From assembly GCF_008830185.1 (NCBI RefSeq), contig NZ_WAGX01000004.1, forward strand, positions 310,001 through 374,000: a DNA stretch of 64,000 nucleotides, in the 5' to 3' direction. Origin of the DNA: Candidatus Galacturonatibacter soehngenii (GTDB lineage Bacteria > Bacillota > Clostridia > Lachnospirales > Lachnospiraceae). This document shows positions 47,959 through 64,000 of the stretch, piece after piece. Within the stretch, counting starts at the first letter, position 1, and each line of letters opens with the position of its first letter. Below the pieces are notes generated by a model. That model did not search any database and had not been told where the DNA came from. It saw only the letters and a program-made list of their open reading frames with translations. A program made the translations under genes and the position numbers.

Positions 47959-48897
47959 CTATGTAATGGAATGTATTTTGCTGTATAAAGCTCTGTATTC
48001 GCTTGGAGTACAATTCTTTTGATTCTTAAAAATGCGGTTGAAGGTGGAAATACTTGAAAAACCAGCCTGTAAGGCAATCTCTGTAATGGAGAGATTAGGT
48101 TCAGCAAGTAAGCTTTCTGCCGCTTTAATTCGTTTAAAACTAAGATAGTCATAAAAGGTAGAATCACTATATTGCTTAAATAATCTGGTGAAATGATATT
48201 TGGAAAATCCACTATAAGAAGCAACATCATCTAAAGTTAATTCCTCCATATAATGGGAATCAATGTAATCTAAAACGCTGTTGAATTTTTGCATATATTC
48301 CTTTTGCTTATAGATTCGTACATTTGGAAATATATCAGTGTTACTGAGGCGGTTTCTTCCTAGCATAACAAACAAATGAACCAGTTGGGCATATATAGCC
48401 AGTTCACGAAAATCATTGTTACTAAAATATTCATTTCTCATTTGTAAAAGCAGTTGATAAACCTCCTCGTAAATCTGTGGATAGGTCTGTTTTGTAATAT
48501 AAAGGCAACCATTTAATAAAGATTGTATGCCTGAAAACCCCTTTAATTTGATAATGTTAGATATATCAAACAAGAAGATAAAACGTTTTCCTGTTTCGGG
48601 AGCAATTAGCTGATGTGTTTCGCCAGGTGGAATGAGGATAATATCCCCTGGCAGGATATGATAAGTAGTAGAGGAGGCAACTACTTCATAATAATTTTCA
48701 ACTGGCATAATGATTTCTAAAGCAGTATGCCAGTGAGGGCTGTAACAATGAGACTGTTCATTATACCAAATGCGGATTATTGTGTCATTTTGGTAATTGA
48801 CTATTTCATAATCACCTTTTACTGTACGTCCTTTCCAGTCACTGTTTTGTGTGTAAAAATCTAAGCAGTTGTTTTTTGTCTGATTTACTCTAGTCAT
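47959..48897 (-). CDS. AraC-family transcriptional regulator with cupin sensor
   Basis: A 312-residue regulator. The N-terminal cupin (about 50-130: SPHWHTALEIIMPV, LPGDIILIPPGETH) should bind a sugar, and the C-terminal pair of helix-turn-helix motifs (about 210-308) reads LTLDDVASYSGFSKYHFTRLFK and SITEIALQAGFSSISTFNRIFK (shown by their cores). It is divergent from the ABC transporter operon and convergent with GH115, so it probably activates both. GGGGG precedes the minus-strand ATG. Confidence 0.92.
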   Translation of the reverse strand: MTRVNQTKNNCLDFYTQNSDWKGRTVKGDYEIVNYQNDTIIRIWYNEQSHCYSPHWHTALEIIMPVENYYEVVASSTTYHILPGDIILIPPGETHQLIAPETGKRFIFLFDISNIIKLKGFSGIQSLLNGCLYITKQTYPQIYEEVYQLLLQMRNEYFSNNDFRELAIYAQLVHLFVMLGRNRLSNTDIFPNVRIYKQKEYMQKFNSVLDYIDSHYMEELTLDDVASYSGFSKYHFTRLFKQYSDSTFYDYLSFKRIKAAESLLAEPNLSITEIALQAGFSSISTFNRIFKNQKNCTPSEYRALYSKIHSIT

Positions 48898-49292
48898 ATA
48901 ATTCCCCCTATAAAAAGATAGTAAAATATGCAGATATTGCGAAAATAAGTAGATAATATAATTTAAATATGATAAAAGTTACAAAAATATACCAATTAAA
49001 TTAAAAACATTATCGAATACATTAACAAAAGAGTATCATATTATCGATAAAAAGTAAATAATGCATAATAAAACAAGTAAATAGCAAAAATAATTGGGCA
49101 ATATTTGAATATTAACTAGCAATAAATGATAAGCGGCAATATTTGAAAATGTTAAGATATATTTATAGTCAATTAGTAGTTTATTCGTAATAAATTAATC
49201 TGATTCCTACGGGAAAATAATTAGTGATATCAGATAATTTTGTATTAAAACAGTAATGATAGGGAGTTATTTAAAAAATTAATGGAGGCATT
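48898..49292. other. Divergent control region between araC-type gene and transporter operon
   Basis: A very AT-rich 395-base gap. I see no gene in it. It holds the exact direct repeats listed separately, several short palindromes (for example ATATTATCGATA near 49040 and TGATATCA near 49225) and the AraC gene's GGGGG ribosome site at its left edge. No promoter is close enough to consensus to be certain; TTGAAA (49143) with TATAGT (49164) is spaced at 15 bp. Confidence 0.6.
49097..49147 (+). promoter_or_regulatory. Direct repeats, candidate AraC operator
   Basis: GGCAATATTTGAA occurs exactly at 49097-49109 and 49135-49147, with a partial copy GCAATAAATGA at 49119-49129 between them. The first GCAATA copies are 21 bp apart, about two helical turns. 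AraC-type proteins bind such direct repeats upstream of the genes they activate. Confidence 0.5.
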
Positions 49293-52205
49293 ATGAAAGA
49301 GGCTGTTAAAAAAATACTAATAACGATTGGAGTAATTCTTATAATAGGAGTTATTTACTTTATTAAGATCAAGACAACAGTAAATGATAATTATGCCGAT
49401 AAGTATGACCAAATAGACTTTGCAATGGGGGAGAACGGATCAAATAGGGAGGGTACTTATTGTGCATACTTAAACAATCATGCTAATGCTCAAAATCCGA
49501 AAAAGAACATTGACATTGATCTTTATAATTATGATTATGGTAAGAATGTAGAGGTTTTTCAAAATTATGAAGGCGAAATGAAAGTTCTTTATACGGGAGA
49601 TGAATCAAAAGTTACATGGAGTGTTGATGTAGTGGAAGCTGGTTTCTACAATGTGTATCTAGAGTACATGACAGTGGAATCAAGAGGGGTTGCAGTGGAA
49701 CGCTCCCTACTTATTAATGGTGAAAATCCTTTCAAGGATGCAGCAAATCTGGTGTTTAACAGATTATGGACAGATGATGGAGAGGTTCGTACGGATAATC
49801 AGGGTAATGAAATACGCCCAACACAGATAGAAGCCTATGAATGGCAAAGTGCCTATTGCAAGGATGGGAGGGGTTATGAAATAGAACCGTATCGGTTTTA
49901 TTTTGAAAAAGGGAAAAATAGCATCACCTTAGAAGCAGTAAATGAACCAGTGATTTTAAGGAAACTTGCACTGACAGCAGTCAGTGAGAGAAATGACTAT
50001 AAAGTCTATAGTAAAAATCTTCCACAGGTGACAAATACGATATCTGATTTCGAGTTAAAAATTCAAGGAGAGGATTCCACGCTACGTTCCGAATCATCAC
50101 TTTACGCCAAATATGATAGAGCATCACCGACAACAGAGCCAAACAGTGTAACGAAAACAGTTTTAAATTATATAGGTGGCGAGACATGGAACTCGTCAGG
50201 ACAATGGATTGAATGGGAATTTCAAGTACCAGAAGATGGGTATTATAACATTACAGTAAAAGGCAGACAAAATTATGCAAGGGGTAGCATATCTTGCAGA
50301 AGTTTATACATAGATGGTGAAGTTCCATTTAAGGAAGTCGAGGCAATTTCTTTTCATTATGGTAATGACTGGAATGTAATGACTTTAGCAGATGAAGATG
50401 GAACACCATATAAGTTTTATTTGACAAAAGGTAGACACCTGGTAAGGCTGGAGGCTACCCTTGGCAATATGGGTGAGATTTTAGAGGAACTAGAAGATTC
50501 TACCTATAATCTAAATCAGATATATCGTAAAATTTTAGTTTATACTGGGGCAGATCCAGATGACTATCGTGATTATAATTTGGAGCAAGTCTATCCAGAA
50601 GTAATTAAAGCAATGGATATTGAATCCAAACGACTCTATAAAATTATTGATGATGTTGTAAGTTACACTGGACAAAAAGCAGAAAAGATTGCCACAGCCC
50701 AGACATTAGCCCAGCAGTTGGAACAGTTTGTTGAGAGGCCAGATAAGATAACGGTTCACTTTATTCCATTTAAAGATAATATTACGGCACTTGGTACGGC
50801 AATTTTAAACATGAGTGAAACAAAGCTTGATATTGATTATTTGATTATAAGCAGTGATGGATTTGAAATACCAAACGATAAGGCAAGCAAATTTGCAAAG
50901 GTATGGCATGAAATAAAATCCTTTGTAGCCACCTTTTTTGTAGATTATGATGCAGTGGGGGATGTTTACAGCGATGAGGATCCTAGTGTTGTAAAGGTAT
51001 GGATTGTAACTGGACGTGATCAGGGAACTATCTTAAAAACAATGGTAGACGATACCTTTACACCTGAACATAAAGTCAAGGTAAATGTTGAAATTGTAGA
51101 AGCTAGTGCACTGTTAAATGCTGTAGTGGCAGGAAGAGGGCCAGATGTTGTTTTGTCTGTTGGTGCAGACCAACCAGTAAATTATGCACTGCGAAATGCC
51201 GTAGAGGATTTAACTCAATTTAAGGATTATAGCGATGTGCTTGATGTGTTCTATGAAAGTGCATACCGTCCTTACGAATATAATAATGGCATATATGCAA
51301 TACCAGAAACCCAGACCTATAACGTTTTGTTTTACCGCAAGGATATTTTAGAGGAGCTTGCACTAGAAATACCAAATACCTGGAAGCAGTTGATTGAGAT
51401 GCTTCCTACTATTCAGGGCAACAATATGGAGGTAGGAATTCCAACAACAGCAAGTGCTACATTGCCTGATGCATCACTTTATTATACATTACTCTACCAA
51501 AATGGAAGTGATATTTATGATGAAGAAGCGAAAAGGACCATTATTGATAATGAAGCAGGTGTGAATGCATTTACTATGTATACAAGTTTTTTTACCGAAT
51601 ATGGTATGCCAAGGGAATACGATTTTGTAAGCCGCTTTCGTTCAGGACAAATGCCTATTGGAATTGCAAACTATAGTATTTATAACACACTAATGGTATC
51701 AGCACCTGAAATTCGAGGTTTATGGGATTTTACATTGATCCCTGGCACGGTTATTACTAAGGATAATGGGCAAGAGTCGATAAAACGTTCGGTTTATTCA
51801 ACTGGAACCTGTAGCATGATGATTAAAACAGAGGATGAAATAAAAAAACAAAACGCATGGAAATTTATGAAATGGTGGGCACAGACAGATGTACAAGTGC
51901 GTTTTGGACGTGAATTAGAAGCATTGCTTGGTTCTTCCGCAAGATATGCAACGGCGAATAAAGAAGCCTTTAGCCAGTTGGCATGGAGTGCTGGTGAGAG
52001 AGCAATTCTTAATGAGCAGTGGAAATCTACAGTAGGATTTCGTGAGGTTGCTGGTGGATATTATACGAATCGTCACATCATCAATGCAGTTAGAAAGGTA
52101 ATGAATAAAAATGAAGATCCAAGAGAGACCGTTCTTGATTATGCTATTACAATCAATGAAGAAATCATAAAGAAGCGAACCGAATTTGGACTTTCGATAG
52201 ATTAA
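49293..52205 (+). CDS. Membrane-anchored solute-binding protein with duplicated carbohydrate-binding-like domains
   Basis: A 970-residue extracytoplasmic protein. An N-terminal helix (about 7-25) with no lipobox or clear cleavage site anchors it. Two related beta-sandwich-like domains follow (about 90-235 and 265-415): RSLLINGENPFKDA at 137 and RSLYIDGEVPFKEV at 336 show an internal duplication, both followed by PY(R/K)FY and a KG-rich strand. A helical linker (about 430-560) leads to a family-1 sugar-binding-protein domain (about 566-960; VVAGRGPDVVLSVG, NVLFYRKDILEEL). Unlike normal 400-residue lipoprotein binding proteins it is tethered and can probably hold a polymer while delivering oligosaccharides to the permeases next door. 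GGAGG precedes ATG 49293. Confidence 0.85.
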   Translation: MKEAVKKILITIGVILIIGVIYFIKIKTTVNDNYADKYDQIDFAMGENGSNREGTYCAYLNNHANAQNPKKNIDIDLYNYDYGKNVEVFQNYEGEMKVLYTGDESKVTWSVDVVEAGFYNVYLEYMTVESRGVAVERSLLINGENPFKDAANLVFNRLWTDDGEVRTDNQGNEIRPTQIEAYEWQSAYCKDGRGYEIEPYRFYFEKGKNSITLEAVNEPVILRKLALTAVSERNDYKVYSKNLPQVTNTISDFELKIQGEDSTLRSESSLYAKYDRASPTTEPNSVTKTVLNYIGGETWNSSGQWIEWEFQVPEDGYYNITVKGRQNYARGSISCRSLYIDGEVPFKEVEAISFHYGNDWNVMTLADEDGTPYKFYLTKGRHLVRLEATLGNMGEILEELEDSTYNLNQIYRKILVYTGADPDDYRDYNLEQVYPEVIKAMDIESKRLYKIIDDVVSYTGQKAEKIATAQTLAQQLEQFVERPDKITVHFIPFKDNITALGTAILNMSETKLDIDYLIISSDGFEIPNDKASKFAKVWHEIKSFVATFFVDYDAVGDVYSDEDPSVVKVWIVTGRDQGTILKTMVDDTFTPEHKVKVNVEIVEASALLNAVVAGRGPDVVLSVGADQPVNYALRNAVEDLTQFKDYSDVLDVFYESAYRPYEYNNGIYAIPETQTYNVLFYRKDILEELALEIPNTWKQLIEMLPTIQGNNMEVGIPTTASATLPDASLYYTLLYQNGSDIYDEEAKRTIIDNEAGVNAFTMYTSFFTEYGMPREYDFVSRFRSGQMPIGIANYSIYNTLMVSAPEIRGLWDFTLIPGTVITKDNGQESIKRSVYSTGTCSMMIKTEDEIKKQNAWKFMKWWAQTDVQVRFGRELEALLGSSARYATANKEAFSQLAWSAGERAILNEQWKSTVGFREVAGGYYTNRHIINAVRKVMNKNEDPRETVLDYAITINEEIIKKRTEFGLSID

Positions 52206-52217
52206 TGGGGGGTTGGC

Positions 52218-53156
52218 ATGAAAAATTATATCAAAAAATATGTAATATTGCGCCGAAATGAATTTAAAATCATGGTGAAAAAAATGAAAAAAAGCAAAGC
52301 ATGTTACTTATTTCTGGCGCCATACGCAATATTGTTTACCATGTTTTACATATTGCCAGTATGCTCCTCAATATTTTTTAGCTTTACTTATTACAATATA
52401 CTGGAATCACCTAAATTTATAGGAGTACAAAACTATATTAATTTAATTTTGCAGGATGATATTTTCCTAACCGCAATCAAGAACACATTTTTGATTGCGG
52501 TTATCACAGGACCACTAGGTTATATTATGTCGTTTCTGTTTGCATGGCTTATTAATGAGTTGCCTAGGTGGTTAAGAACCATTGGAGTTATTGTATTTTA
52601 TGTACCCTCCATTGCAGGAAATGTTTTCATTATTTTCGCCATCTTCTTTCGTGGTGATGCTTATGGTTATGTCAATGCATTTTTAATGAATGCTGGTATA
52701 ATTGGTGCACCAATTTTATGGCTGACTAACCCTAAATATATGCTTAAAGTTTGTATGATTGTAATTCTATGGATGAGTCTTGGAACGGGATTTCTTTCTT
52801 TTGTAGCAGGTCTTCAAGGAGTTGACCGTTCTCAATTTGAAGCTGGTTATATGGATGGTGTAAAAAATCGTTGGCAGGAATTGTGGTATATTACATTGCC
52901 AAATATGAAACCCATGTTAATGTTTGGTGCGGTAATGGCTATTACACAGGCGTTTGGTGTTTGTGATGTTACTATGGCGTTATGTGGTTATCCAAGTACG
53001 GATTATGCAGCAAGAACGGTGGTAACTCATCTATTTGATTACGGATTTTCCAGATTTGAAATGGGGTACGCATCAGCAATAGCAACCACATTGTTTTTGA
53101 TTATGATTATATGTAACAAAGCAATTCAGAGTTTATTAAGAAGAGTGGGAACCTGA
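52218..53156 (+). CDS. Sugar ABC transporter permease (MalF type)
   Basis: A 312-residue inner-membrane permease of the CUT1 family with six helices after a basic N-terminal tail. The EAA loop reads FEAGYMDGVKNRWQELWYIT, where it would contact the ATPase. It starts 12 bases after the large binding protein and pairs with the next gene. No ATPase is encoded nearby. Confidence 0.92.
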   Translation: MKNYIKKYVILRRNEFKIMVKKMKKSKACYLFLAPYAILFTMFYILPVCSSIFFSFTYYNILESPKFIGVQNYINLILQDDIFLTAIKNTFLIAVITGPLGYIMSFLFAWLINELPRWLRTIGVIVFYVPSIAGNVFIIFAIFFRGDAYGYVNAFLMNAGIIGAPILWLTNPKYMLKVCMIVILWMSLGTGFLSFVAGLQGVDRSQFEAGYMDGVKNRWQELWYITLPNMKPMLMFGAVMAITQAFGVCDVTMALCGYPSTDYAARTVVTHLFDYGFSRFEMGYASAIATTLFLIMIICNKAIQSLLRRVGT

Positions 53157-53157
53157 T

Positions 53158-54060
53158 ATGAGTAAAAAGATAAAAGAAAAGACAATAAAATCATCCAAAC
53201 ACAAAAAAATAATAAAAAAAAGAAAACCCAATCGTTCTTTTGTTGGTGATATTCTAATATACTTCGTGTTATTTTTATTTGCACTGGCAATGGTATTTCC
53301 ACTTGTGTTTGCAATTAGTAGTTCATTAAAACCGTTAGATGAATTGTTTTTATTTCCGCCAAAGTTATTTGCACAAAATCCAACACTGGATAACTTTCAA
53401 GATCTGTTTGTAACCATGGGAAAATCATGGGTAACTTTCTCTCGATATATTTTCAATACGGTATTCATTACTGCTGTAGGTACAACAGGGCATTTGATTA
53501 TTGCATCGTTGGGGGCATTTGTACTTGCCAAATATGATTTTCCTGGTAAAAAACTTTTTTTTACAATTGTTGTAACCGCTTTAATGTTTAACGGGTATGT
53601 AACAGCAATTCCAAACTATTTAATTATTAGTAAACTGGGATGGGTAGATACCTACTGGGCAATTGTTATTCCAGCATTTGCAGCACCTATGGGTTTGTTT
53701 CTTATGAAACAGTTCATGGAAGGAATCCCTATGTCACTGGTTGAAGCCGCAATGATTGACGGAGCTGGTCTTGGAAAAATATTCATGCGAATTGTTATGC
53801 CAAATGTAAAACCAGCTTGGCTTACGCTCATCATCTTTTCTGTTCAAAATCTATGGAATAACAAAGCGGCAACATTTATTTATTCTGAAGAGAAAAAAAC
53901 GCTGGTTTATGCACTGCAACAGATTCAAAGCGGTGGTATTGCAAGAACTGGTCAGGCAGCTGCAGTAACTGTCATCGTTATGATTGTTCCAATTACAATT
54001 TTCATCCTGTCTGAGAGCCAGATTCTTGAAACAATGGCAAGCTCTGGTTTGAAGGAATAA
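53158..54060 (+). CDS. Carbohydrate ABC transporter permease (MalG type)
   Basis: The 300-residue partner permease. A very basic N-terminal tail of ~30 residues precedes six helices, and the EAA loop is VEAAMIDGAGLGKIFMRIVM. The C-terminus ends SSGLKE, like MalG-type proteins. It starts one base after the previous stop. Confidence 0.92.
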   Translation: MSKKIKEKTIKSSKHKKIIKKRKPNRSFVGDILIYFVLFLFALAMVFPLVFAISSSLKPLDELFLFPPKLFAQNPTLDNFQDLFVTMGKSWVTFSRYIFNTVFITAVGTTGHLIIASLGAFVLAKYDFPGKKLFFTIVVTALMFNGYVTAIPNYLIISKLGWVDTYWAIVIPAFAAPMGLFLMKQFMEGIPMSLVEAAMIDGAGLGKIFMRIVMPNVKPAWLTLIIFSVQNLWNNKAATFIYSEEKKTLVYALQQIQSGGIARTGQAAAVTVIVMIVPITIFILSESQILETMASSGLKE

Positions 54061-54080
54061 AGAAGATGGAGGATGATAAG

Positions 54081-55601
54081 ATGTTGAACAGGAAAATAAA
54101 AAGTTTGATTGTATTAACTGTAGTGGTTTGCATACTTATTGGTACGGTTACGAAGGTAGAAGCAGATGACGGTTTGAAAAAAGGATATACCTACAATTAT
54201 GATTATTGGTCAGATGTTTTGTATTCGCCTGATGCATACAGTACAGTAGGCGTATATACATCGGTGGAATTGGGGTTGGAGCAAGGGTTTAATAATGCCA
54301 CAGGGATGTATGTGCGTGGTGATACCCTCTATATCTGTGATACAGGAAATAATCGGATTGTGGAATTACAAAAAGTAAGTAAGGATACTTTTGAACTAGT
54401 ACGTATCATTCATATGATTAAGGGAGAGGTAGCAGTAAAAACATTATCCGCTCCAACAGATGTCTGTGCATCAGAAGATGGATATTTATATATCTGTGAT
54501 AAAGGAAATGGGCGTATTTTAAAGCTTGATGATGATTTGAATTATGTAATGGAATTCACAAAACCAACGGATGCAACCTTTGATCAGACGACTGCTTTTT
54601 TGCCAAATAAATTAGAGGTGGATGGAGTAGGTAGAGTTTATTGTATCGCAGATAATGTTAATAAAGGTATGATTAAATACGATTCGGATGGAACCTTTGC
54701 TGGATTTTATGGAGCTAGTGAAGTTACTTATGACTGGACCGATTACCTTTGGAAGAAATTTGCAACGAAGGCACAGCGGGCAGCAATGGAATCCTTTGTT
54801 CCAACCGAATATGACAATTTATATAGAGATTTGGAGGGTTTTATCTTTGCATGTACCACAAATGTTACTGGGGCAGGGCTTGATGCTGGTACTGATTCGC
54901 CAATTCGCAGACTGAATTTGCTGGGAAAAGATATTTTAATTGAAAACGGTAATTTTAATGTGATTGGTGATATCTACTGGGGGGAGGCTGGTGGTTATAA
55001 AGGTCCTTCTTTAATTACGGATATTACTGCTCTGGATAATGGTATTTATTTTGCGCTTGATAAAGTAAGAGGAAGAATTTTTGGCTATGACACACAAGGG
55101 CACTTGCTATATGCTTTTGGCGGTAATGGTAACTTGGATGGATATTTTAAATTACCAGTAGCGATTGAACATATGGGTAAGGATCTTATTGTACTGGATT
55201 CAAAAGATTCTAGCTTTACCGTATTTACTCCAACGGAATATGGGAGTTTGATTTATAAAGCAATTGAAGAATACGATATAGGAGATTATGATGCTTCAGG
55301 TACCACATGGCAGCAAGTAAAAGCCTTAAATGGAAATTATGATCTTGCCTATGTTGGCATTGGAAGAGCACTAATGCGTCAGGGAAATTATAAAGAAGCT
55401 ATGACCTATTTCAAACTAAAATGGGATACACACAATTATTCCAAGGCATTTAAGCAATATCGAAAAGAGTGGGTGGAAGAACACATTGGTTTAATGGTTG
55501 TAATTCTTATATTTTTATTCGTAGTTCCAATGTTGGTAGGAAAAATAAAAAAAATCAAGCATGAAATTGATGTAGCAGAAAATATAGAAAGATTGATGTA
55601 G
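54081..55601 (+). CDS. NHL-repeat propeller protein with C-terminal membrane anchor
   Basis: A 506-residue exported protein. A signal peptide (about 1-25) is followed by NHL-type beta-propeller blades (about 60-395: GDTLYICDTGNNRIVEL and GYLYICDKGNGRILKL are clear copies). Next comes a TPR-like helical pair (about 415-460, GIGRALMRQGNYKEAMTYF) and one membrane helix near the C-terminus (about 470-490), ending in a charged cytoplasmic tail. It is not an enzyme by any visible residue. Its fixed place between the permeases and the Yip1/DUF5696 genes suggests a role in the transporter. ATG 54081 is preferred over 54066, as GGAGG lies between them. Confidence 0.8.
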   Translation: MLNRKIKSLIVLTVVVCILIGTVTKVEADDGLKKGYTYNYDYWSDVLYSPDAYSTVGVYTSVELGLEQGFNNATGMYVRGDTLYICDTGNNRIVELQKVSKDTFELVRIIHMIKGEVAVKTLSAPTDVCASEDGYLYICDKGNGRILKLDDDLNYVMEFTKPTDATFDQTTAFLPNKLEVDGVGRVYCIADNVNKGMIKYDSDGTFAGFYGASEVTYDWTDYLWKKFATKAQRAAMESFVPTEYDNLYRDLEGFIFACTTNVTGAGLDAGTDSPIRRLNLLGKDILIENGNFNVIGDIYWGEAGGYKGPSLITDITALDNGIYFALDKVRGRIFGYDTQGHLLYAFGGNGNLDGYFKLPVAIEHMGKDLIVLDSKDSSFTVFTPTEYGSLIYKAIEEYDIGDYDASGTTWQQVKALNGNYDLAYVGIGRALMRQGNYKEAMTYFKLKWDTHNYSKAFKQYRKEWVEEHIGLMVVILIFLFVVPMLVGKIKKIKHEIDVAENIERLM

Positions 55602-55614
55602 GACGGAGGCAGGT

Positions 55615-56271
55615 ATGCAAGTTTCATTAAAGAAAAAAGAAACCTACGGTCATTATTTTGCAACCCTAAGATATGCAATGTATGTTATAACCCATCCATT
55701 GGATGGCTTTTGGGACCTGACTCATGAGAATAGAGGATCGCTTGCAGCAGCCAATACAATAATTATCTTAACGTTGCTGGTAAGGATAATGAAACTTCAG
55801 TTTACAAGTTTTTTGTTTCTTCAGGTTTATTGGGAAGGAATCAATATCTTCTTATATATTGCAAGTATTTTATTTCCACTGGTATTGTTTTGTGTAGGAA
55901 ACTGGGGGTTAACAACGCTGTTTGATGGAAAGGGAAAACTGTCACAGATTTATATGGGAACAGCCTACGCTTTAACACCATATCCACTCATTCAGTTTTT
56001 TATGATTTTATTTAGTAATGTAGTAACAGATGAAGAGGGTGCCTTTTATTATTTTGCCGCCGCACTTTCTGTTGGATGGGTGGCAATGCTAATTATTTGT
56101 GCCATGATGGAGATTCATGAATATACACTAAGTAAGACAATATTATTTATCATTGCAACATTTTTTGCAATGATGGTCATGGTCTTTCTTTTAATGCTAT
56201 TTTTTAGTATGACTAGCCAAGGTATTGCATATTTCATTTCCATCGTGAAAGAAATCATGTTCCGAATGTGA
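55615..56271 (+). CDS. Yip1-family membrane protein
   Basis: A 218-residue integral membrane protein with five helices, of the Yip1 type (PF04893), recognised by the opening HPLDGFWDLTHENRGS and the mid-protein TLFDGKGKLSQIYMGTAYALTPY. Bacterial Yip1 proteins have no settled role. The gene follows the NHL gene by 13 bases. GGAGG lies just before ATG 55615. Confidence 0.8.
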   Translation: MQVSLKKKETYGHYFATLRYAMYVITHPLDGFWDLTHENRGSLAAANTIIILTLLVRIMKLQFTSFLFLQVYWEGINIFLYIASILFPLVLFCVGNWGLTTLFDGKGKLSQIYMGTAYALTPYPLIQFFMILFSNVVTDEEGAFYYFAAALSVGWVAMLIICAMMEIHEYTLSKTILFIIATFFAMMVMVFLLMLFFSMTSQGIAYFISIVKEIMFRM

Positions 56272-56292
56272 CAGGTTGGAGGGTAAAAGGAT

Positions 56293-58890
56293 ATGAAGAA
56301 AGATAAGGTGGTAATAGCCATGGAGAGGAAAGCAGCCTTGAAAGGAAAGGTAAAAAGTCTTTTGGTTCCTATTCTGATTTTACTAGTAATCATAGCTGTC
56401 ATTTTGGTAGTAGTAATATATAAAGAGGACGAAACAGCAGAGGAGATTATTAAGGTAAATGAATTTGAAGGTACAGATAAGGAAATTATACTGGAAAACG
56501 ATAAACTGAAATTTGTCATGGATTCATCTACTACACAGTTTTTTGTGACTGTAAAATCCACAGGGGAGACGTGGTATTCCAATCCGTTAAATGCAGAGGA
56601 TGATACGATAGCACTTCCCACAGACATTGAGAATTTAAAATCTACACTTCTTTTGACCTACAGTACAATTAATGGTGTTGATACACTGTATAACAACTAC
56701 AAATACAGTATGTCTGCTAGAACTTATAATATTGAGGCAACCAATGATTATGTGAAGGTATATTATTCAATTGGTGAGGTAGAAAAAGAGTATATTGTTC
56801 CAAGAGTCATCACAGCAAAGCGGATGGAAGAGTTATTATCCAATATGAGTCATACAGATACCAACACAGTAGAGCAGTACTATAAAAAGTATGATATTAA
56901 CAATCTTGGTAAAAAGGATAACAAAGAAGAGTTGTTAACACAATATCCAATTCTAAAAGATGAAATTATTTATGTATTGCGTGACGGGGTAAAGGATACG
57001 TTAAAGAAAAAGTTTGAAACATATTTTGGTGATGCAGGATATACAAAAGAGGAGTATGCCAAGGAAAAAGAATTATATTCCTTTGATTCTTCTTCCAAAA
57101 AGCCAGTATTTAATGTCAACATGGTGTATCGACTTGACAAAAGTGACCTGGTAGTAGATATTCCGATGAACGAGATTGAGTATAAAGAAAATTATCCCCT
57201 TCTTACTTTAAATGTATTGCCTTTCTTTGGAGCGGCAGGGACATCAGAAAACGGATATATGGTAGTACCAGAAGGTGGTGGAGCCATTATTAATTTCAAT
57301 AATGGAAAGACAGCACAAAACAGCTATTATTCTAATATATATGGTTGGGATATGGCACAGGGAAGAACTTCCTTAGTTCATGAGACAAGAAACTATTATG
57401 GTGTTTATGGAATGGCAAAAAATGATAATTCTTTCATCTGTATGTTAGAGGATGGGGCAGCGTATGCATCTATAGGTGCTGATATTAGTGGAAGAAGCAA
57501 CAGTTATAATTATGTGAATGCCAGTTATAGTATTTTACATAGAGAGCAGTGTGATGTGGCGGATAAATATAATGGAGAGATGTTTGTATATGAACAGAGT
57601 ATTCCAAAAGAAAACATAGTTGAGCGGTACCGTTTTATTGATTCAGGAAGTTATGTGGATATGGCGAATGCTTATCATAATTATCTTGTAGAAAAATTGG
57701 GCGAAAATTTTACAAAGAAAGATGACATTGATGTACCAGTTGCAGTGGAAATCATTGGTGCCGTTGACAAGGTAGGACAGGTGCTTGGAGTGCCAGTTTC
57801 GAAACCATTAGAGCTTACTACTTATAAAGAAGCACAAGAGATACTTGAGACATTACGTACGAATGGTGTAACGAATATGTCTGTAAAATTAAGTGGTTGG
57901 ATGAATGGAGGAATCAAGCAGAGCGTTCTTACTGATGTTAATTTAATAAAAGAACTGGGCCGAAAAAAGGATTTGCAAAATCTAATCTCTTATGCAACTG
58001 AGAATGAAATCAATATCTATTTTGATGGCGTGACAAATTTTGCTTATAACAATAAGCTATTTGATGGCTTTGAGTTATATAGGGATGGTGCGACGCTGGC
58101 TAACAAGCAAAAGGTGGAGCTTTTAGAGTTTGATCCAGTTTATTATGGAGAACAAAAATGGAAGGATTCTTATTATTTATTAAAACCAAAATTTATTACC
58201 AAAATGATGGAGAATCTTTCGCTAGCTGCAAAAAACTACGGAGCAACAGGAGTATCCTTTCGAGACATTGGATACCAGCTTGCAGCAGATTACAGCCAAA
58301 AGCATTTGGTTAGCAGACAGCAGGCAAAAATTGAGCAACTAAACGTATTAAAAACAATTAGTGATTCGGGGCTTAAAATCATGACGAATATGGGAAATGA
58401 CTATACCCTTGGCATTACGAATTTTATCACGAATATGGACTTAAGCGGCTCAAAGTACACCATCATTGACAAAACGATTCCCTTTTACCAGATTGCCATT
58501 CATGGTTACGTTAATTATGCTGGAGAAGCATTAAACCTTGCAACTGATTATCAGGAAGAACTTTTAAAATCTGCTGAATATGGTTCATTATTGTATTTTA
58601 CATTCATGAAAGAAGATACCACAAAGTTACAAAACACTTATTATACACAGTATTTTGGAGCAGCCTTTGATGCGTGGCAAGAGAAAATGATTTCCATCTA
58701 TCAAAGATACAAAAAGGAACTTGGTGGTACTTTTAACCAGAGAATAACAGATCATGAGATACTAAAAAGTGGTATCACTGTAACAACCTATGAAGACGAA
58801 ACAAAGGTATATGTGAATTACAACTATGAAGACTACACGATAGCAGGTGGCAGCAATCTCCCAGCTAGAGACTATCTGGTAATTCGATAA
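56293..58890 (+). CDS. DUF5696 membrane-anchored protein, glycosidase-like architecture
   Basis: An 865-residue protein tethered by one N-terminal helix (about 21-43). Residues 50-470 look beta-rich, and 480-790 look like an alpha/beta barrel, with VAVEIIGAVDK opening it. Candidate acidic residues at strand ends are Asp578 (NIYFDGVTN) and Asp658 (VSFRDIGYQ). A short beta-rich tail closes it. This order (supersandwich then barrel) resembles GH101/GH129-type glycosidases, but that comparison is mine and untested; the family is annotated only as DUF5696. It lies between Yip1 and the second permease pair. GGAGGG precedes ATG 56293. Confidence 0.75.
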   Translation: MKKDKVVIAMERKAALKGKVKSLLVPILILLVIIAVILVVVIYKEDETAEEIIKVNEFEGTDKEIILENDKLKFVMDSSTTQFFVTVKSTGETWYSNPLNAEDDTIALPTDIENLKSTLLLTYSTINGVDTLYNNYKYSMSARTYNIEATNDYVKVYYSIGEVEKEYIVPRVITAKRMEELLSNMSHTDTNTVEQYYKKYDINNLGKKDNKEELLTQYPILKDEIIYVLRDGVKDTLKKKFETYFGDAGYTKEEYAKEKELYSFDSSSKKPVFNVNMVYRLDKSDLVVDIPMNEIEYKENYPLLTLNVLPFFGAAGTSENGYMVVPEGGGAIINFNNGKTAQNSYYSNIYGWDMAQGRTSLVHETRNYYGVYGMAKNDNSFICMLEDGAAYASIGADISGRSNSYNYVNASYSILHREQCDVADKYNGEMFVYEQSIPKENIVERYRFIDSGSYVDMANAYHNYLVEKLGENFTKKDDIDVPVAVEIIGAVDKVGQVLGVPVSKPLELTTYKEAQEILETLRTNGVTNMSVKLSGWMNGGIKQSVLTDVNLIKELGRKKDLQNLISYATENEINIYFDGVTNFAYNNKLFDGFELYRDGATLANKQKVELLEFDPVYYGEQKWKDSYYLLKPKFITKMMENLSLAAKNYGATGVSFRDIGYQLAADYSQKHLVSRQQAKIEQLNVLKTISDSGLKIMTNMGNDYTLGITNFITNMDLSGSKYTIIDKTIPFYQIAIHGYVNYAGEALNLATDYQEELLKSAEYGSLLYFTFMKEDTTKLQNTYYTQYFGAAFDAWQEKMISIYQRYKKELGGTFNQRITDHEILKSGITVTTYEDETKVYVNYNYEDYTIAGGSNLPARDYLVIR

Positions 58891-58901
58891 AATCAAAAAA
58901 T

Positions 58902-58921
58902 CGGCAGTGCATCAGACTGTC
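58902..58921 (+). other. Short stem overlapping the ribosome site of the second permease pair
   Basis: CGGCAGT pairs with ACTGTCG around a 7-base loop, next to the CGGAGG site at 58920-58925. It could limit translation of the following permease. Confidence 0.3.
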
Positions 58922-58936
58922 GGAGGTTGGAAAGGG

Positions 58937-59854
58937 ATGGTTTATAGTATGAAGTGGCAAAAAAAATATAAGGGTCTTCAAAGAAGAAAAGCAATATCTG
59001 GATATTTGTTCATAATGCCTTTTATCATTGGATTTTTGACATTTATGGTAAAGCCCTTTTTTCAGTCGCTTTACATGAGTTTTTGTAAGGTGGAAATAAG
59101 TTCAGGTGGATTTCATATGTTATTTGATGGACTTACAAATTATATAAGAGCATTTACCATTGATACAGAATATAACAGACTATTGACAGAGGATATTGGA
59201 AAAATGACTTATACTGCACTGGCAATTATGGTATTTAGCTTTTTTGTGGCTATGATATTAAACCAGAAATTCAAAGGGCGTGCCTTTGTCAGAGCAATCT
59301 TTTTCCTGCCAGTAATCTTATCTTCTGGCGTAATTCTTGGAATTGAATATGATAATTCTTTACTGGCAAGTGTGCAAGATGCCATTCAAGGCTCAATGGG
59401 AAATTCCAGTATCACAAGTATCATTCAAAAAATTTTAACAACTAGCGGTATGGCGAGTGGAGCGCTGAAAAAGGTATTTGAAATTGTAGATGGTGTATAC
59501 GACGTTGCGATTGCATCGGGAATTCAGATTATAATTTTCTTATCAGGATTACAAACAATATCAAAGAATATGTATGAAGCAGCAGAAATAGAAGGTTGTA
59601 CTGGTTGGGAAAGTCTATGGAAAATAACATTTCCAATGATAAGTCCATTGTTTTTAGTTAATTGGGTTTATACGATTGTAGACTTTTGTATGAGATCAGA
59701 TAATCAGGTCATGGAAAAAATCAGTAATACTATGATTGTAGATTTGAATTATGGCTTTGCTTCGGCAATGGCATGGGTATACTTTGGGATTGTAATTGCA
59801 ATTATTGGTATAAGCTCACTCATTATTTCGAAAGGAGTTTATTACTATGAATAA
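58937..59854 (+). CDS. Sugar ABC transporter permease (MalF type), second set
   Basis: A 305-residue CUT1 permease with six helices (first at about 23-45, GYLFIMPFIIGFL). The EAA loop is YEAAEIEGCTGWESLWKITF. ATG 58937 follows GGAGG at 58921 by 11 bases; GTG 58907 is in frame but precedes this site, and ATG 58949 is possible. It overlaps the next permease by 8 bases. Confidence 0.9.
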   Translation: MVYSMKWQKKYKGLQRRKAISGYLFIMPFIIGFLTFMVKPFFQSLYMSFCKVEISSGGFHMLFDGLTNYIRAFTIDTEYNRLLTEDIGKMTYTALAIMVFSFFVAMILNQKFKGRAFVRAIFFLPVILSSGVILGIEYDNSLLASVQDAIQGSMGNSSITSIIQKILTTSGMASGALKKVFEIVDGVYDVAIASGIQIIIFLSGLQTISKNMYEAAEIEGCTGWESLWKITFPMISPLFLVNWVYTIVDFCMRSDNQVMEKISNTMIVDLNYGFASAMAWVYFGIVIAIIGISSLIISKGVYYYE

Positions 59855-60851
59855 AGAAGCAATGCAAAAAAAATATATGAGTTATTGGCAAAGAAATAAA
59901 AAAACACAGGGCTATTTGTTAAAGAAAGACATTAAGAATTTTTCATATAGAATCATACGCTTCTTTCTTTTGTTTGGTATGTGTTTCTTGATATTACAAC
60001 CGATTTTTAATAAGATCACCATTAGCTTTATGGCAGAAGAGGATTTGTATAACGCTATGGTTATTTCAGTTCCAGAGCATTTTACCACCAGTAATTATAT
60101 GCTGGCAGCAAAGTTTATGAACTATTTTAAAACGCTATGTAATACTTTTTTTGTATCTTTTACAATCGCTATCTTGCAGATTGTGGTATGTACGGTAGTT
60201 GGATATGGTTTTGCCAGATTTGAATTTCCATTCAAAAGGTTTTGGTTTGCCTGTGTTATGTTAGTCATTGTTATTCCACCCCAGACGATTTCTTCTTCCT
60301 TACATTTACACTTTAGGTATTTTGATATGTTTGGAATTATGAAATTGATTACAGGACACACAATTAATTTAAGAGGCTCTGCACTTCCTTATTATATGAT
60401 GAGTGCAGGGTGTATGGGGTTGAAAAATGGATTGTATATATATATGATTCGACAATTTTTTCGTAATATTCCAAAAGAAATGGAAGAAGCAGCTTATGTG
60501 GACGGTTGTAGTACATTAAAAACATTCATTCGTATTATGCTGCCAGATGCAAAACCTATTTTAACGTCATGTTTTTTATTTGCTTTTGTATGGCAGTGGA
60601 CAGATGGTTTTTATTCAAAGATGTTCCTTGGGAATATAAAATTACTCTCCATTCAACTGCCACAGATTGGCGAACAATTAAACAAATATCTGACTCATAC
60701 ATTGAATCAGGCAACAGGAGCATCTGTTGGATATACACAGTGTGTTATTTCAACAGGAACGCTTATGGTAATACTTCCACTTTTGATTTTATATTTATTT
60801 GCACAAAAGGGATTTGTGGAAAGCTTAAGTAGTACTGGTATTAAAATGTAA
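59847..60851 (+). CDS. Carbohydrate ABC transporter permease (MalG type), second set
   Basis: The 334-residue partner. A ~35-residue basic tail precedes six helices; the EAA loop is EEAAYVDGCSTLKTFIRIML and the end is SSTGIKM. It is only distantly similar to the first MalG-type permease by eye, so the two pairs are probably not a recent duplication. Confidence 0.9.
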   Translation: MNKEAMQKKYMSYWQRNKKTQGYLLKKDIKNFSYRIIRFFLLFGMCFLILQPIFNKITISFMAEEDLYNAMVISVPEHFTTSNYMLAAKFMNYFKTLCNTFFVSFTIAILQIVVCTVVGYGFARFEFPFKRFWFACVMLVIVIPPQTISSSLHLHFRYFDMFGIMKLITGHTINLRGSALPYYMMSAGCMGLKNGLYIYMIRQFFRNIPKEMEEAAYVDGCSTLKTFIRIMLPDAKPILTSCFLFAFVWQWTDGFYSKMFLGNIKLLSIQLPQIGEQLNKYLTHTLNQATGASVGYTQCVISTGTLMVILPLLILYLFAQKGFVESLSSTGIKM

Positions 60852-60897
60852 CGCGATATTTTCTAGTTTGGCAAGAAGATTAAAGGAGGAATTTAAA

Positions 60898-62355
60898 ATG
60901 AGAAAATCAAAACGTGTGTTATCAATTATGATGGCAATCACAATAGCTGTAGGTATGTCTGCATGTGGAGGCAGTTCTGATACAGCTAAGGTGGCGAATG
61001 ACAATGTAACAAATACAAATGATGTGGAAGCAAAAGATGCACAAGCGACAGAAGCAAAAGATGCAAATGAAGCAAAACAATATAAACTTCTGACAGACGA
61101 AAATGGAAAGCCATATGATTTGGGTGGAATGGAAATTATTATTGGAGACTGGTGGAGCTCAGGGGAGAAAGAGGAAGCTGCCAGTGCTTATGAAGAGGCA
61201 CGCTTGGAGTATTTAGATTGGATTCAGGAAAGCTATAATTTTACAATCAAAGAGCAGGCAATTACATCCTTTGATGAGTCACCAGAAAATTTTGTAAATT
61301 ATGCGACTACAGGCAAAGATGAAAATTATATTTTTACCTTATATCAGGGGAGTGCCCTAATGTCCGCAATAAACAGTGATTTAATGTATGATCTTTCAAC
61401 ACTGGATTGTCTTGATTTTTCAGAGAGTAAGTGGGAAACTTCCGTGAAAGAATTAATGACGATTGGCAATGCCACTTATGGTATGAGAGGGATTCCACAT
61501 CAAGCAACAGCAGGTATCTTTTTTAATAAGAGATTATTAGAGGAATCTGGTATCGATCCTGATTCAATCTATGAATTACAGGCAAACAAGGAATGGACGT
61601 GGGATAAATTTGAAGAGCTTTGCCAGAAGGTTCAAAAGGATACAGATAATGATGGTGTAATTGATAGGCATGCAATGACAAACTTTACAAGTACTTTATA
61701 TCCAGCAGCTGTTTACTCAAATGGTGGAGCGTTTATTGGAAAAGATGAAAAGGGTTTTTACAATGCCCTAGAATCTGACCCAACAATGGAAGCCTTAAAT
61801 TGGGCACTTGATTTGGTTAGTAAATATGAAATGGTTTATCCAGAAGATTCCGAATGGGATTATACCTTTACCGCATTTGCAAATGGTGAAGCGGTATTTA
61901 CTTGTGCTGAATCATATAAAGCAGGGGACTGGTCCGAGATGGAGGATGACTTTGGATTCGTGTGTTTTCCAATGGGACCTCGTATGGATCATTATGTTAA
62001 TTTTGCTCAAGATAACGTATATGTAATTCCTTCTTGCTATGATGCTGAAAAAGCTTGGAAAATTGCTTTTGCATTTAACTTATACACAGATCCAGTTCCA
62101 GGATATGAAGATTATGAAGGTTGGAAATCTGGCTACTATCAGTCATTTAGAGATACAGAGTCGGTAGATGAAACACTAGCCATTATGGTTAAGAGTGGCG
62201 TTCCTATGTATGAAAAAGCAATTAATGGTATTTCTATGGGGGAAGATCTTTTATGGGGCATCAACGAGGATAATACGCCAGCACAAAAAGCAGAGGCTAT
62301 TAGAAATACTTGGCAGTCATATATAGACCAAACCAATAGTCAGCAAATAAAATAA
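60898..62355 (+). CDS. Lipoprotein sugar-binding protein, second set
   Basis: A 485-residue extracytoplasmic binding protein. The lipobox MSAC places the lipid-carrying Cys at about residue 22, followed by a linker with repeated EAKDA. The SBP fold follows (GIPHQATAGIFFNKRLLEESG, WTWDKFEELCQKV). A calcium-type loop DTDNDGVID sits near residue 245. AAGGAGG sets ATG 60898; an upstream ATG-less extension from 60868 is unlikely. It matches the second permease pair. Confidence 0.9.
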   Translation: MRKSKRVLSIMMAITIAVGMSACGGSSDTAKVANDNVTNTNDVEAKDAQATEAKDANEAKQYKLLTDENGKPYDLGGMEIIIGDWWSSGEKEEAASAYEEARLEYLDWIQESYNFTIKEQAITSFDESPENFVNYATTGKDENYIFTLYQGSALMSAINSDLMYDLSTLDCLDFSESKWETSVKELMTIGNATYGMRGIPHQATAGIFFNKRLLEESGIDPDSIYELQANKEWTWDKFEELCQKVQKDTDNDGVIDRHAMTNFTSTLYPAAVYSNGGAFIGKDEKGFYNALESDPTMEALNWALDLVSKYEMVYPEDSEWDYTFTAFANGEAVFTCAESYKAGDWSEMEDDFGFVCFPMGPRMDHYVNFAQDNVYVIPSCYDAEKAWKIAFAFNLYTDPVPGYEDYEGWKSGYYQSFRDTESVDETLAIMVKSGVPMYEKAINGISMGEDLLWGINEDNTPAQKAEAIRNTWQSYIDQTNSQQIK

Positions 62356-62390
62356 CAGAAAAAGTAAATAAAAGATACAGCAGTATATTT

Positions 62391-62421
62391 ACGGGATGGT
62401 ATACAAAAGATACCTTCCCGT
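62391..62421 (+). other. Stem-loop between the binding-protein and SGNH genes
   Basis: ACGGGA-T-GGTAT pairs with ATACC-TT-CCCGT around a 7-base loop. No T-run follows. Such hairpins often protect binding-protein mRNA and lower downstream expression. Confidence 0.5.
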
Positions 62422-62453
62422 ACTTTGCTACTTGCATCAGAATGGAGGGAAAA

Positions 62454-64000
62454 ATGGAAGGACCAAAAGCACCAATGGATCCCCAAAAGAGACGACCGTT
62501 TTTTTATATTATGCGAGAAAAAGAAGTTTTTGGGGCAAAGCAGATAGATGGAAAGGGAGTTTCCTTTATTTATCAAAATGATGGACGACTAATGAATAGT
62601 GCTTTAATTGTTGGCAATATAACGGACAATAAGATTCTTAATTTATTAAAGACCACAGAAGGATTTAGAAAGTTGGTACACAGTATTGGCGTTTCTGTTG
62701 AAAGCGATTGTAGAGAAGACAGCATTGAATTTGTATTCCAGATGTATGGAAAAAAGGATGTGTATGGAGGCGGCTCGCTACTTAAAGTAAAACTAAAAGG
62801 GGATGGAGCTGAGAGTAGAATTAATCTATCTGATATAGAGCGGACAGAGGACGAATTTGAACCAGGACAGATTCGTTTTGTTTTTGAGGTTCCAGAAAAA
62901 ATTGCAAGGGCTAGTGTCCGATTTTACCTAAATGATGGATATAGGGCACCAGAAGTGGCAGAGGAAGCAGAGATTGATTTTACTTCAAAAGATTATCAGG
63001 CAATGATTGAACGTTCCTTAATACAGACAGGAAATGCAGTCCGAACTATGAAAGCAATCAAAAAAGCTCGTGCAGGAGAAGAGGTAACACTTGCTTATAT
63101 AGGAGGCTCTATTACCCAAGGAGCGGGAGCGGTACCAATTAATAAAGAATGCTATGCATTCAAATCCTATCAAGCATTTGCAAGCAAATATGGAACAGGT
63201 GATAATGTGCATTATGTCAAAGCAGGAGTAGGTGGGACGCCATCTGAACTAGGAATGCTTCGTTTCGAACGAGACATATTACGAGATGGAATCCAGCCAG
63301 ACATAGTAATTGTTGAATTTGCTGTCAATGATGAGGGGGATGAGACAAAGGGAAAATGCTATGAGAGTTTGGTAAAGAAAATTTTATTGCTACCCAATAA
63401 TCCAGCAGTCATATTACTTTTTGCAGTATTTGCAAGTGACTGGAACTTACAAGAGCGTCTTTTTCCAGTTGGAAGGCACTATGATCTTCCCATGGTAAGT
63501 GTGTTGAATGCGGTAACTCCACAGTTTCAAATGAAACATGGTGAGGGAAGAGTGTTATCAAAAAATCAGTTTTTCTATGATGTATTCCACCCAAGTAATG
63601 TTGGTCATACCATAATGGCAGACTGTCTGACAAACTTGTTTTGTGTAGTAGAAAAAATGTTCTATGATAACAAAGATGAATTAGCAGTTGATCCAACATT
63701 CTCACTGTTATTACAAAAGGCAGTAATAGGAGATGAGTTTACTAAAGTAAAACTGATAGATAAAAGGATAAATTATGATATTTGTAAAATTACATCAGGT
63801 GATTTTACAGAGACAGATCGTGAATTGCAGTGTGTTGAAATGGATGAAAACCTAGAGGGAACACCTCAATTCCCATATAATTGGATGTATGATGGAACAA
63901 AGGGTGGCAAACAGCGACCTTATCTTGAAGTAGAGATAAAAGCAAAAGCATTTTTTCTCATTTTTAAGGATTCTGGGGCATTGGATGTTGGAAAAGTAGA
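62454..64000 (+). CDS. SGNH-family hydrolase/esterase, partial at window end
   Basis: The first 515 codons of a longer gene, open to the window edge. Residues 1-185 look like a beta-sandwich domain. An SGNH (GDSL-like) domain follows: block I AYIGGSITQGAG with Ser219, block II GVGGTPSELG, block III EFAVNDEGD, and block V DVFHPSNVGHT with Asp376 and His379. After ~410 another beta-rich region begins. These features fit carbohydrate esterases, so an acetyl-xylan or similar esterase is the likely role. No signal peptide is visible, so it would act in the cytosol. GGAGGG at 62444-62449 sets ATG 62454; the ATG at 62442 is part of that site. Confidence 0.85.
   Translation, partial: MEGPKAPMDPQKRRPFFYIMREKEVFGAKQIDGKGVSFIYQNDGRLMNSALIVGNITDNKILNLLKTTEGFRKLVHSIGVSVESDCREDSIEFVFQMYGKKDVYGGGSLLKVKLKGDGAESRINLSDIERTEDEFEPGQIRFVFEVPEKIARASVRFYLNDGYRAPEVAEEAEIDFTSKDYQAMIERSLIQTGNAVRTMKAIKKARAGEEVTLAYIGGSITQGAGAVPINKECYAFKSYQAFASKYGTGDNVHYVKAGVGGTPSELGMLRFERDILRDGIQPDIVIVEFAVNDEGDETKGKCYESLVKKILLLPNNPAVILLFAVFASDWNLQERLFPVGRHYDLPMVSVLNAVTPQFQMKHGEGRVLSKNQFFYDVFHPSNVGHTIMADCLTNLFCVVEKMFYDNKDELAVDPTFSLLLQKAVIGDEFTKVKLIDKRINYDICKITSGDFTETDRELQCVEMDENLEGTPQFPYNWMYDGTKGGKQRPYLEVEIKAKAFFLIFKDSGALDVGKV

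Follow-up and report, generated by a model that had tools for sequence, protein, structure and literature searches.

Introduction

How Gram-positive fibre degraders capture large oligosaccharides at their surface and transfer them to ATP-binding cassette (ABC) importers is poorly understood. Here, we describe a nine-gene cassette of Candidatus Galacturonatibacter soehngenii at positions 49293-62355 of a 64,000-nucleotide stretch of contig NZ_WAGX01000004.1 (the window), in which an NHL beta-propeller protein, a Yip1-domain membrane protein and a DUF5696 protein stand between two pairs of importer permeases. The closest described systems are CUT1 importers that share an MsmX/MsmK-type ATPase. 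Like these, the cassette encodes a binding protein and two BPD_transp_1 permeases in an operon without an ATPase, and two OB_MalK-type ATPases are encoded elsewhere in the genome. Unlike these, it has two permease pairs, the NHL/Yip1/DUF5696 trio between them, and a solute-binding protein (SBP1) bearing a membrane anchor and CBM35-like modules.

Individual components resemble parts of other systems. The Yip1-family protein YknW modulates the assembly of the YknXYZ ABC transporter (PMC4887032). Both the cassette and YknWXYZ, the Bacillus SDP-toxin transporter, encode a Yip1-family membrane protein together with an ABC transporter; however, YknYZ belongs to the MacB-like exporters and is paired with a membrane-fusion protein, whereas the cassette is an importer with a propeller and a putative pseudo-glycosidase. 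The neighbours of the cassette's Yip1 protein are importer permeases, not a MacB-like exporter and membrane-fusion protein as for YknW. Yip1 proteins also occur in bacteriocin ABC clusters (PMC10707071). In animals, 4F2hc serves a transporter: it has one membrane helix, and its glycosidase-like ectodomain is inert and lacks catalytic residues (PMC8537225). Like DUF5696, the 4F2hc and rBAT heavy chains have one membrane helix and a transporter-linked ectodomain that resembles a glycosidase, but they derive from glycoside hydrolase (GH) family GH13, are not GH129-like, are of animal origin and partner SLC7 carriers; the resemblance appears to be one of design, not descent. We regard YknW, the bacteriocin-cluster Yip1 proteins and 4F2hc as analogies for the cassette, not as systems to which it belongs.

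By contrast, the GH129 (NagBb, ZgGH129) and GH101 glycosidases are related to DUF5696 in fold and, along the entire barrel, in sequence. The cassette's DUF5696 proteins differ from these enzymes by their membrane anchor, by the loss of the predicted acid/base residue in most members and by always lying in an importer operon. The SusC/SusD systems, too, are present in numerous paralogous versions within a genome, and different glycan enzymes flank each one; the cassette differs in having neither an outer membrane nor a TonB-dependent porin, and the proteins are unrelated. Pfam found no TonB-dependent SusC or SusD domains in the nine cassette proteins. We found no published description of the NHL/Yip1/DUF5696 cassette and no papers on DUF5696 in a search covering open-licence literature only, which makes this a weak absence. 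The cassette is genuine and conserved, and the open literature searched seems not to describe it; it represents a variant of the CUT1 importers.

A conserved nine-gene cassette

The cassette comprises nine consecutive open reading frames (ORFs) on the + strand:

49293..52205, + strand: SBP1, solute-binding protein (Pfam SBP_bac_8/SBP_bac_1)
52218..53156, + strand: PA1, permease 1, UgpA/MalF type (BPD_transp_1 46.6 bits; best NCBIfam model UgpA, under cut-off)
53158..54060, + strand: PB1, permease 2, UgpE/MalG type (BPD_transp_1 53.9 bits; best NCBIfam model UgpE, under cut-off)
54066..55601, + strand: NHL beta-propeller, with a TPR segment and a membrane helix at the C-terminal end (NHL 40 bits; TPR matches; hydropathy)
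55615..56271, + strand: Yip1-domain multi-pass membrane protein (Yip1 PF04893 42.3 bits; hydropathy)
56293..58890, + strand: DUF5696, anchored ectodomain of predicted GH129 fold (Pfam DUF5696 661 bits; AlphaFold2 (AF2) model; hhalign)
58907..59854, + strand: PA2, permease 3, invariant core (BPD_transp_1 30 bits)
59847..60851, + strand: PB2, permease 4, invariant core (BPD_transp_1 40 bits)
60868..62355, + strand: SBP2, lipoprotein-like solute-binding protein (SBP_bac_1 42.6 bits)

The intergenic gaps are, in order, 12, 1, 5, 13, 21, 16, -8 and 16 bp, in agreement with the first-pass annotation, which had described nine consecutive genes overlapping or lying a few bases apart. Its proposal of a single unit was supported by the near-perfect co-occurrence of DUF5696, Yip1 and NHL beside CUT1 permeases and by NHL-Yip1 fusions, both set out below; the nine genes share one strand, and no + strand terminator-like site lies within 48700-62700. 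Since the identical gene order recurs in dozens of genomes, a chance arrangement can be excluded. Pfam also agreed with its inventory of two binding proteins, two permease pairs, and NHL/TPR, Yip1 and DUF5696 proteins, the TPR segment coming from profile matches; the solute-binding domains of the first and last proteins and all four BPD_transp_1 permeases exceeded the Pfam cut-offs. SBP2 probably starts at the in-frame ATG 60898 (MRKSKRVLS...MSACGG, a lipoprotein-like signal) rather than at the listed TTG.

The three central proteins occur together almost without exception. Among 150 evenly drawn Lachnospiraceae genomes, one identical set of 30 contained full-length DUF5696 (counted at E below 1e-90), the NHL subfamily, the Yip1 subfamily and the SBP1 architecture. 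The chance agreement of two such sets would be ~10^-31 for independent genomes, a value that is indicative only, as the genomes are related. Of 398 Bacillota genomes sampled at the level of the phylum, 41 had DUF5696 and 42 had the NHL protein, with all 41 shared. Yip1 was present in each of the 40 DUF5696 genomes tested (the window's own aside) and in none of 13 DUF5696-negative genomes. Independent occurrence of the three genes was thus looked for and not found; the three keep company almost perfectly and lie beside CUT1 permeases. Moreover, gene order was kept across 83 loci, and the closest named genome, Lachnotalea glycerini DSM 28816, has the same nine-gene order with a DUF5696 protein of 80% identity. 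The cassette is near-invariant and widespread across many Bacillota families.

The sole NHL-subfamily match without DUF5696 in the 398 genomes (G372:C103:7907-8500) is a fragment, a 284-aa open frame covering profile positions 10-202, and perhaps a remnant. The sampled genome of the window's own genus (G144) gave no match to the DUF5696, NHL, Yip1 or SBP1 profiles; the cassette is therefore variable within the genus.

The invariant core

In 36 of the 83 loci, from several lineages, NHL and Yip1 form a single polypeptide. On the DUF5696 tree, the fused or separate state requires six changes, one of which depends on the contig-edge locus L151, which points to about five fusion or fission events. 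These fusions are the strongest evidence for a physical association of the two proteins.

Profile searches placed PA2-PB2 directly after DUF5696 in 73 of 79 non-edge loci, the exceptions being mostly profile mislabels or contig edges. The SBP1-PA1-PB1 half lies upstream in 61 of 78 loci and is absent chiefly in multi-copy genomes. NHL-Yip1 is missing immediately upstream of DUF5696 in six of the 83 loci, namely at contig edges, where ORFs overlap, in one rearrangement and in L125. These exception counts are upper bounds, as some permeases and ORFs are mislabelled by the profile annotation. Because the core is retained where the SBP1 half is absent, NHL-Yip1-DUF5696-PA2-PB2 is the inseparable core, and SBP1 and the PA1-PB1 half are dispensable. 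The term "double importer" used in the first-pass annotation hence describes the commonest form of the cassette but not an invariant one, the trio staying with PA2-PB2.

The cassette has also multiplied within genomes: G207 holds 10 full-length DUF5696 genes, and G226 has 19 DUF5696 matches, about 14 of them near full length. Five genomes (G226, G186, G207, G273 and G299; loci L134-L153) have 8 to 19 DUF5696 matches each, a paralogous expansion of cassettes beside pectin and hemicellulose enzymes.

DUF5696 as a GH129-fold protein

The DUF5696 protein has an N-terminal membrane anchor (residues 24-42), and at the sequence level its profile matched the GH129 structures 5opq, 8rzk and 5wzn. The AF2 model (predicted TM-score (pTM) 0.71, mean predicted local distance difference test (pLDDT) 70.8) aligned with ZgGH129 (8rzk) over 560 residues (VIA Z 28.6, root-mean-square deviation (rmsd) 4.2) and with NagBb at Z 25.6, the matches covering the whole ectodomain. 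GH101 was the next fold match in Foldseek, and GH13 and CD98hc chains reached a Z of about 17, compared with 24-29 for GH129. Alignment by hhalign to stand-alone GH129-like proteins gave 99.9% (E 7e-34). Profiles and model together identify DUF5696 as a predicted relative of GH129, homologous over the whole barrel.

We compared 63 cassette DUF5696 members with five stand-alone relatives at the columns that we take to hold the GH129 nucleophile (Asp) and acid/base (Glu), located by motif alignment and from NagBb biochemistry. All five stand-alone relatives have both residues. Among the cassette members, Asp is present in 40, Glu in 10, both in five and neither in 18; the acid/base column is Asn in 25. 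The predicted pair is thus incomplete in 58 of 63, including the window's protein, which has Asp658 at the predicted nucleophile column and Asn699 at the acid/base column. Since the pair is incomplete in most members, the likeliest reading of alignment and model is a pseudo-glycosidase, its fold presumably kept for binding or scaffolding, rather than a trimming enzyme. The first-pass annotation had suggested that its complex might trim a glycan; the GH129 fold would suit this, but trimming is not supported by these columns.

The members with both predicted residues, possibly active, are those of L094, L095, L097, L098 and L129; four of the five form one clade, in the large-genome family f32. 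Three stand-alone GH129-like proteins that fall under Pfam DUF5696 keep the catalytic pair (L116:3676-5358, L117:3227-4981 and L114:2433-4325), and the L116 and L114 genes adjoin ABC importer genes without NHL or Yip1. Judged by sequence, Pfam DUF5696 seems to mix active GH129-like enzymes with transporter-serving pseudo-enzymes. One DUF5696 gene (G226:C81:41367-43262) contains an in-frame TAG, from sequencing error, decay or recoding.

NHL and Yip1 proteins, binding proteins and ATPases

The NHL protein consists of a signal-like N-terminal segment, the propeller, the TPR segment, a C-terminal helix (474-492) and a positively charged tail. The TPR segment is sub-threshold in Pfam and backed by profile matches to solved TPR proteins. 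Helix and charged tail are consistent with a propeller located outside the cell. The Yip1 protein, multi-pass by hydropathy, scored 42.3 bits against a cut-off of 28.6, and no solved relative was found by sequence. A defence role for the NHL, Yip1 and DUF5696 proteins was considered and rejected, as none of the three had a PADLOC match.

SBP1 combines an N-terminal anchor (residues 8-26), two beta-sandwich modules, a helical region and a CUT1-type solute-binding domain (about 570-970). The two modules are related (hhalign 98.9%). In the AF2 model the binding domain came out poorly (mean pLDDT 55.9), so only the N-terminal module was used; residues 70-231 matched the CBM35 fold with VIA Z 14.3 (124 aligned, rmsd 2.2), and SBP1 stays below the Pfam CBM_35 cut-off (17.3 vs 28 bits). 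The closest solved binding proteins to its binding domain are Lin1841 and Lmo0181, and the closest solved relative of SBP2 is 6rjy, an arabino-oligosaccharide-binding protein. One SBP1 gene (G055:C46:27291-30200) carries a single in-frame TGA, attributable to sequencing error, decay or recoding. The operon contains no ATPase gene, and the only two OB_MalK-type ATPases of the genome lie on other contigs.

A proposed accessory complex of a CUT1 importer

We propose, with a probability of roughly 0.55, that the cassette encodes a CUT1 ABC importer of oligosaccharides from plant polysaccharides, together with an obligate accessory complex formed by the NHL, Yip1 and DUF5696 proteins. The propeller and the Yip1 protein would make up a single unit in the membrane, the propeller facing outward and its C-terminal helix joined to the Yip1 bundle. 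DUF5696, a single-helix-anchored ectodomain of glycosidase fold without the conserved catalytic pair, would act as a glycan-binding or scaffolding subunit and not as a hydrolase. The extracellular NHL/DUF5696 assembly, anchored by Yip1, could raise the local concentration of oligosaccharides at the membrane, help the permeases and binding proteins to assemble or dock, and hand the oligosaccharides over to them. Most loci add a second importer, PA1-PB1, whose binding protein is anchored in the membrane and carries CBM35-like modules. Shared MsmX/UgpC-type ATPases encoded elsewhere would provide the ATP hydrolysis.

Several points weigh against this proposal. Our structure models are of single chains only, and adjacency in a conserved operon need not mean one complex. 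The DUF5696 model is of middling confidence, with low-confidence barrel loops, and DUF5696 and the propeller are only presumed to bind glycans. In addition, the five proteins with both catalytic residues and the 40 with the predicted nucleophile mean that some members may be active. Together with the GH129 fold, the intact pair of the stand-alone relatives and the 86-92% conservation of D666, D726 and E762, they speak for an active glycosidase at the cell surface that trims oligosaccharides ahead of their import, using either the GH129 nucleophile with another proton donor or another pair, such as Asp666 or Asp726 with Glu762. We consider this unlikely, because the acid/base column holds Asn in 25 members against Glu in 10 and no further conserved acidic residue lies a few columns to either side, 18 members lack both residues, and two stand-alone relatives with the normal pair likewise have D726 and E762, so that these look structural.

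The trio might instead be mainly a module for permease assembly or stability without a glycan-binding role, as the effect of YknW on transporter assembly, the inert 4F2hc ectodomain of a transporter subunit and the tie of the trio to PA2-PB2 would allow; however, the glycosidase-fold domain, the propeller and flanking glycan enzymes that vary from locus to locus fit substrate contact equally well, and we hold this explanation to be somewhat less probable still. The least probable of the explanations, and one to which we give little credence, is a glycan sensor controlling expression or transporter activity. NHL propellers do act as sensor domains outside the cell, PknD being one of the matches, and an AraC-type regulator gene adjoins the cassette, but Pfam found no signalling output domain in the three proteins, and the AraC-type one-component regulator is already in place.

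The accessory complex would give three proteins of unknown role one shared, testable function, and the obligate association of the trio with an importer points to such a complex for plant-fibre sugar uptake. If true, bacteria would have a counterpart of the inert glycosidase-like subunits found in animal amino-acid transporters. More tentatively, and with chances that we put below even, the cassette could be a general Bacillota platform for glycan capture with a role like that of SusCD in Bacteroidota, in which an NHL-Yip1 receptor and a pseudo-glycosidase subunit are bound to a CUT1 permease pair. A genome would hold up to ten or more copies of this platform, adapted to different plant glycans through the binding protein and the flanking enzymes.

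Flanking enzymes, cargo and regulator

The neighbours of the cassette in the window are as follows:

45079..47955, + strand, upstream of the AraC regulator: GH115 alpha-glucuronidase (Glyco_hydro_115 432 bits)
47959..48897, - strand: AraC-family regulator (Pfam HTH_18, HTH_AraC, AraC_binding)
62442..63998, + strand, runs past the window end: GDSL/SGNH esterase (Lipase_GDSL_2 in the full-length gene L112:443-2182)

The GH115 alpha-glucuronidase is a probable functional partner of the cassette, and the esterase a probable cargo enzyme. Flanking genes of the relatives encode GH43, GH10, GH3, GH26, GH130, GH67 and GH5 enzymes, those of the multi-copy genomes GH43, GH27-type, GH78, GH28 and GH2 enzymes, and one locus of family f85 adjoins a GH26 mannanase with CBM27. 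The cassettes sit beside xylan, mannan or pectin enzymes; the machine is common and the cargo varies. Because the window's neighbours are GH115, GH36 and the GDSL esterase, the cargo in this genome may be glucuronic-acid-decorated hemicellulose fragments. The gene for the GH36 alpha-galactosidase (window 42852-45056) contains a single in-frame TGA at 43470-43472; the parts before and after it share one uninterrupted frame, and each matches GH36 domains.

The AraC-family regulator, divergent from the cassette across a 395-bp gap, is its candidate regulator. Several relatives have opposite-strand genes of similar size at the same position. Close downstream of another cassette lies a large regulator of AraC type with regions resembling GGDEF and, weakly, Cache (L097:14590-17247).

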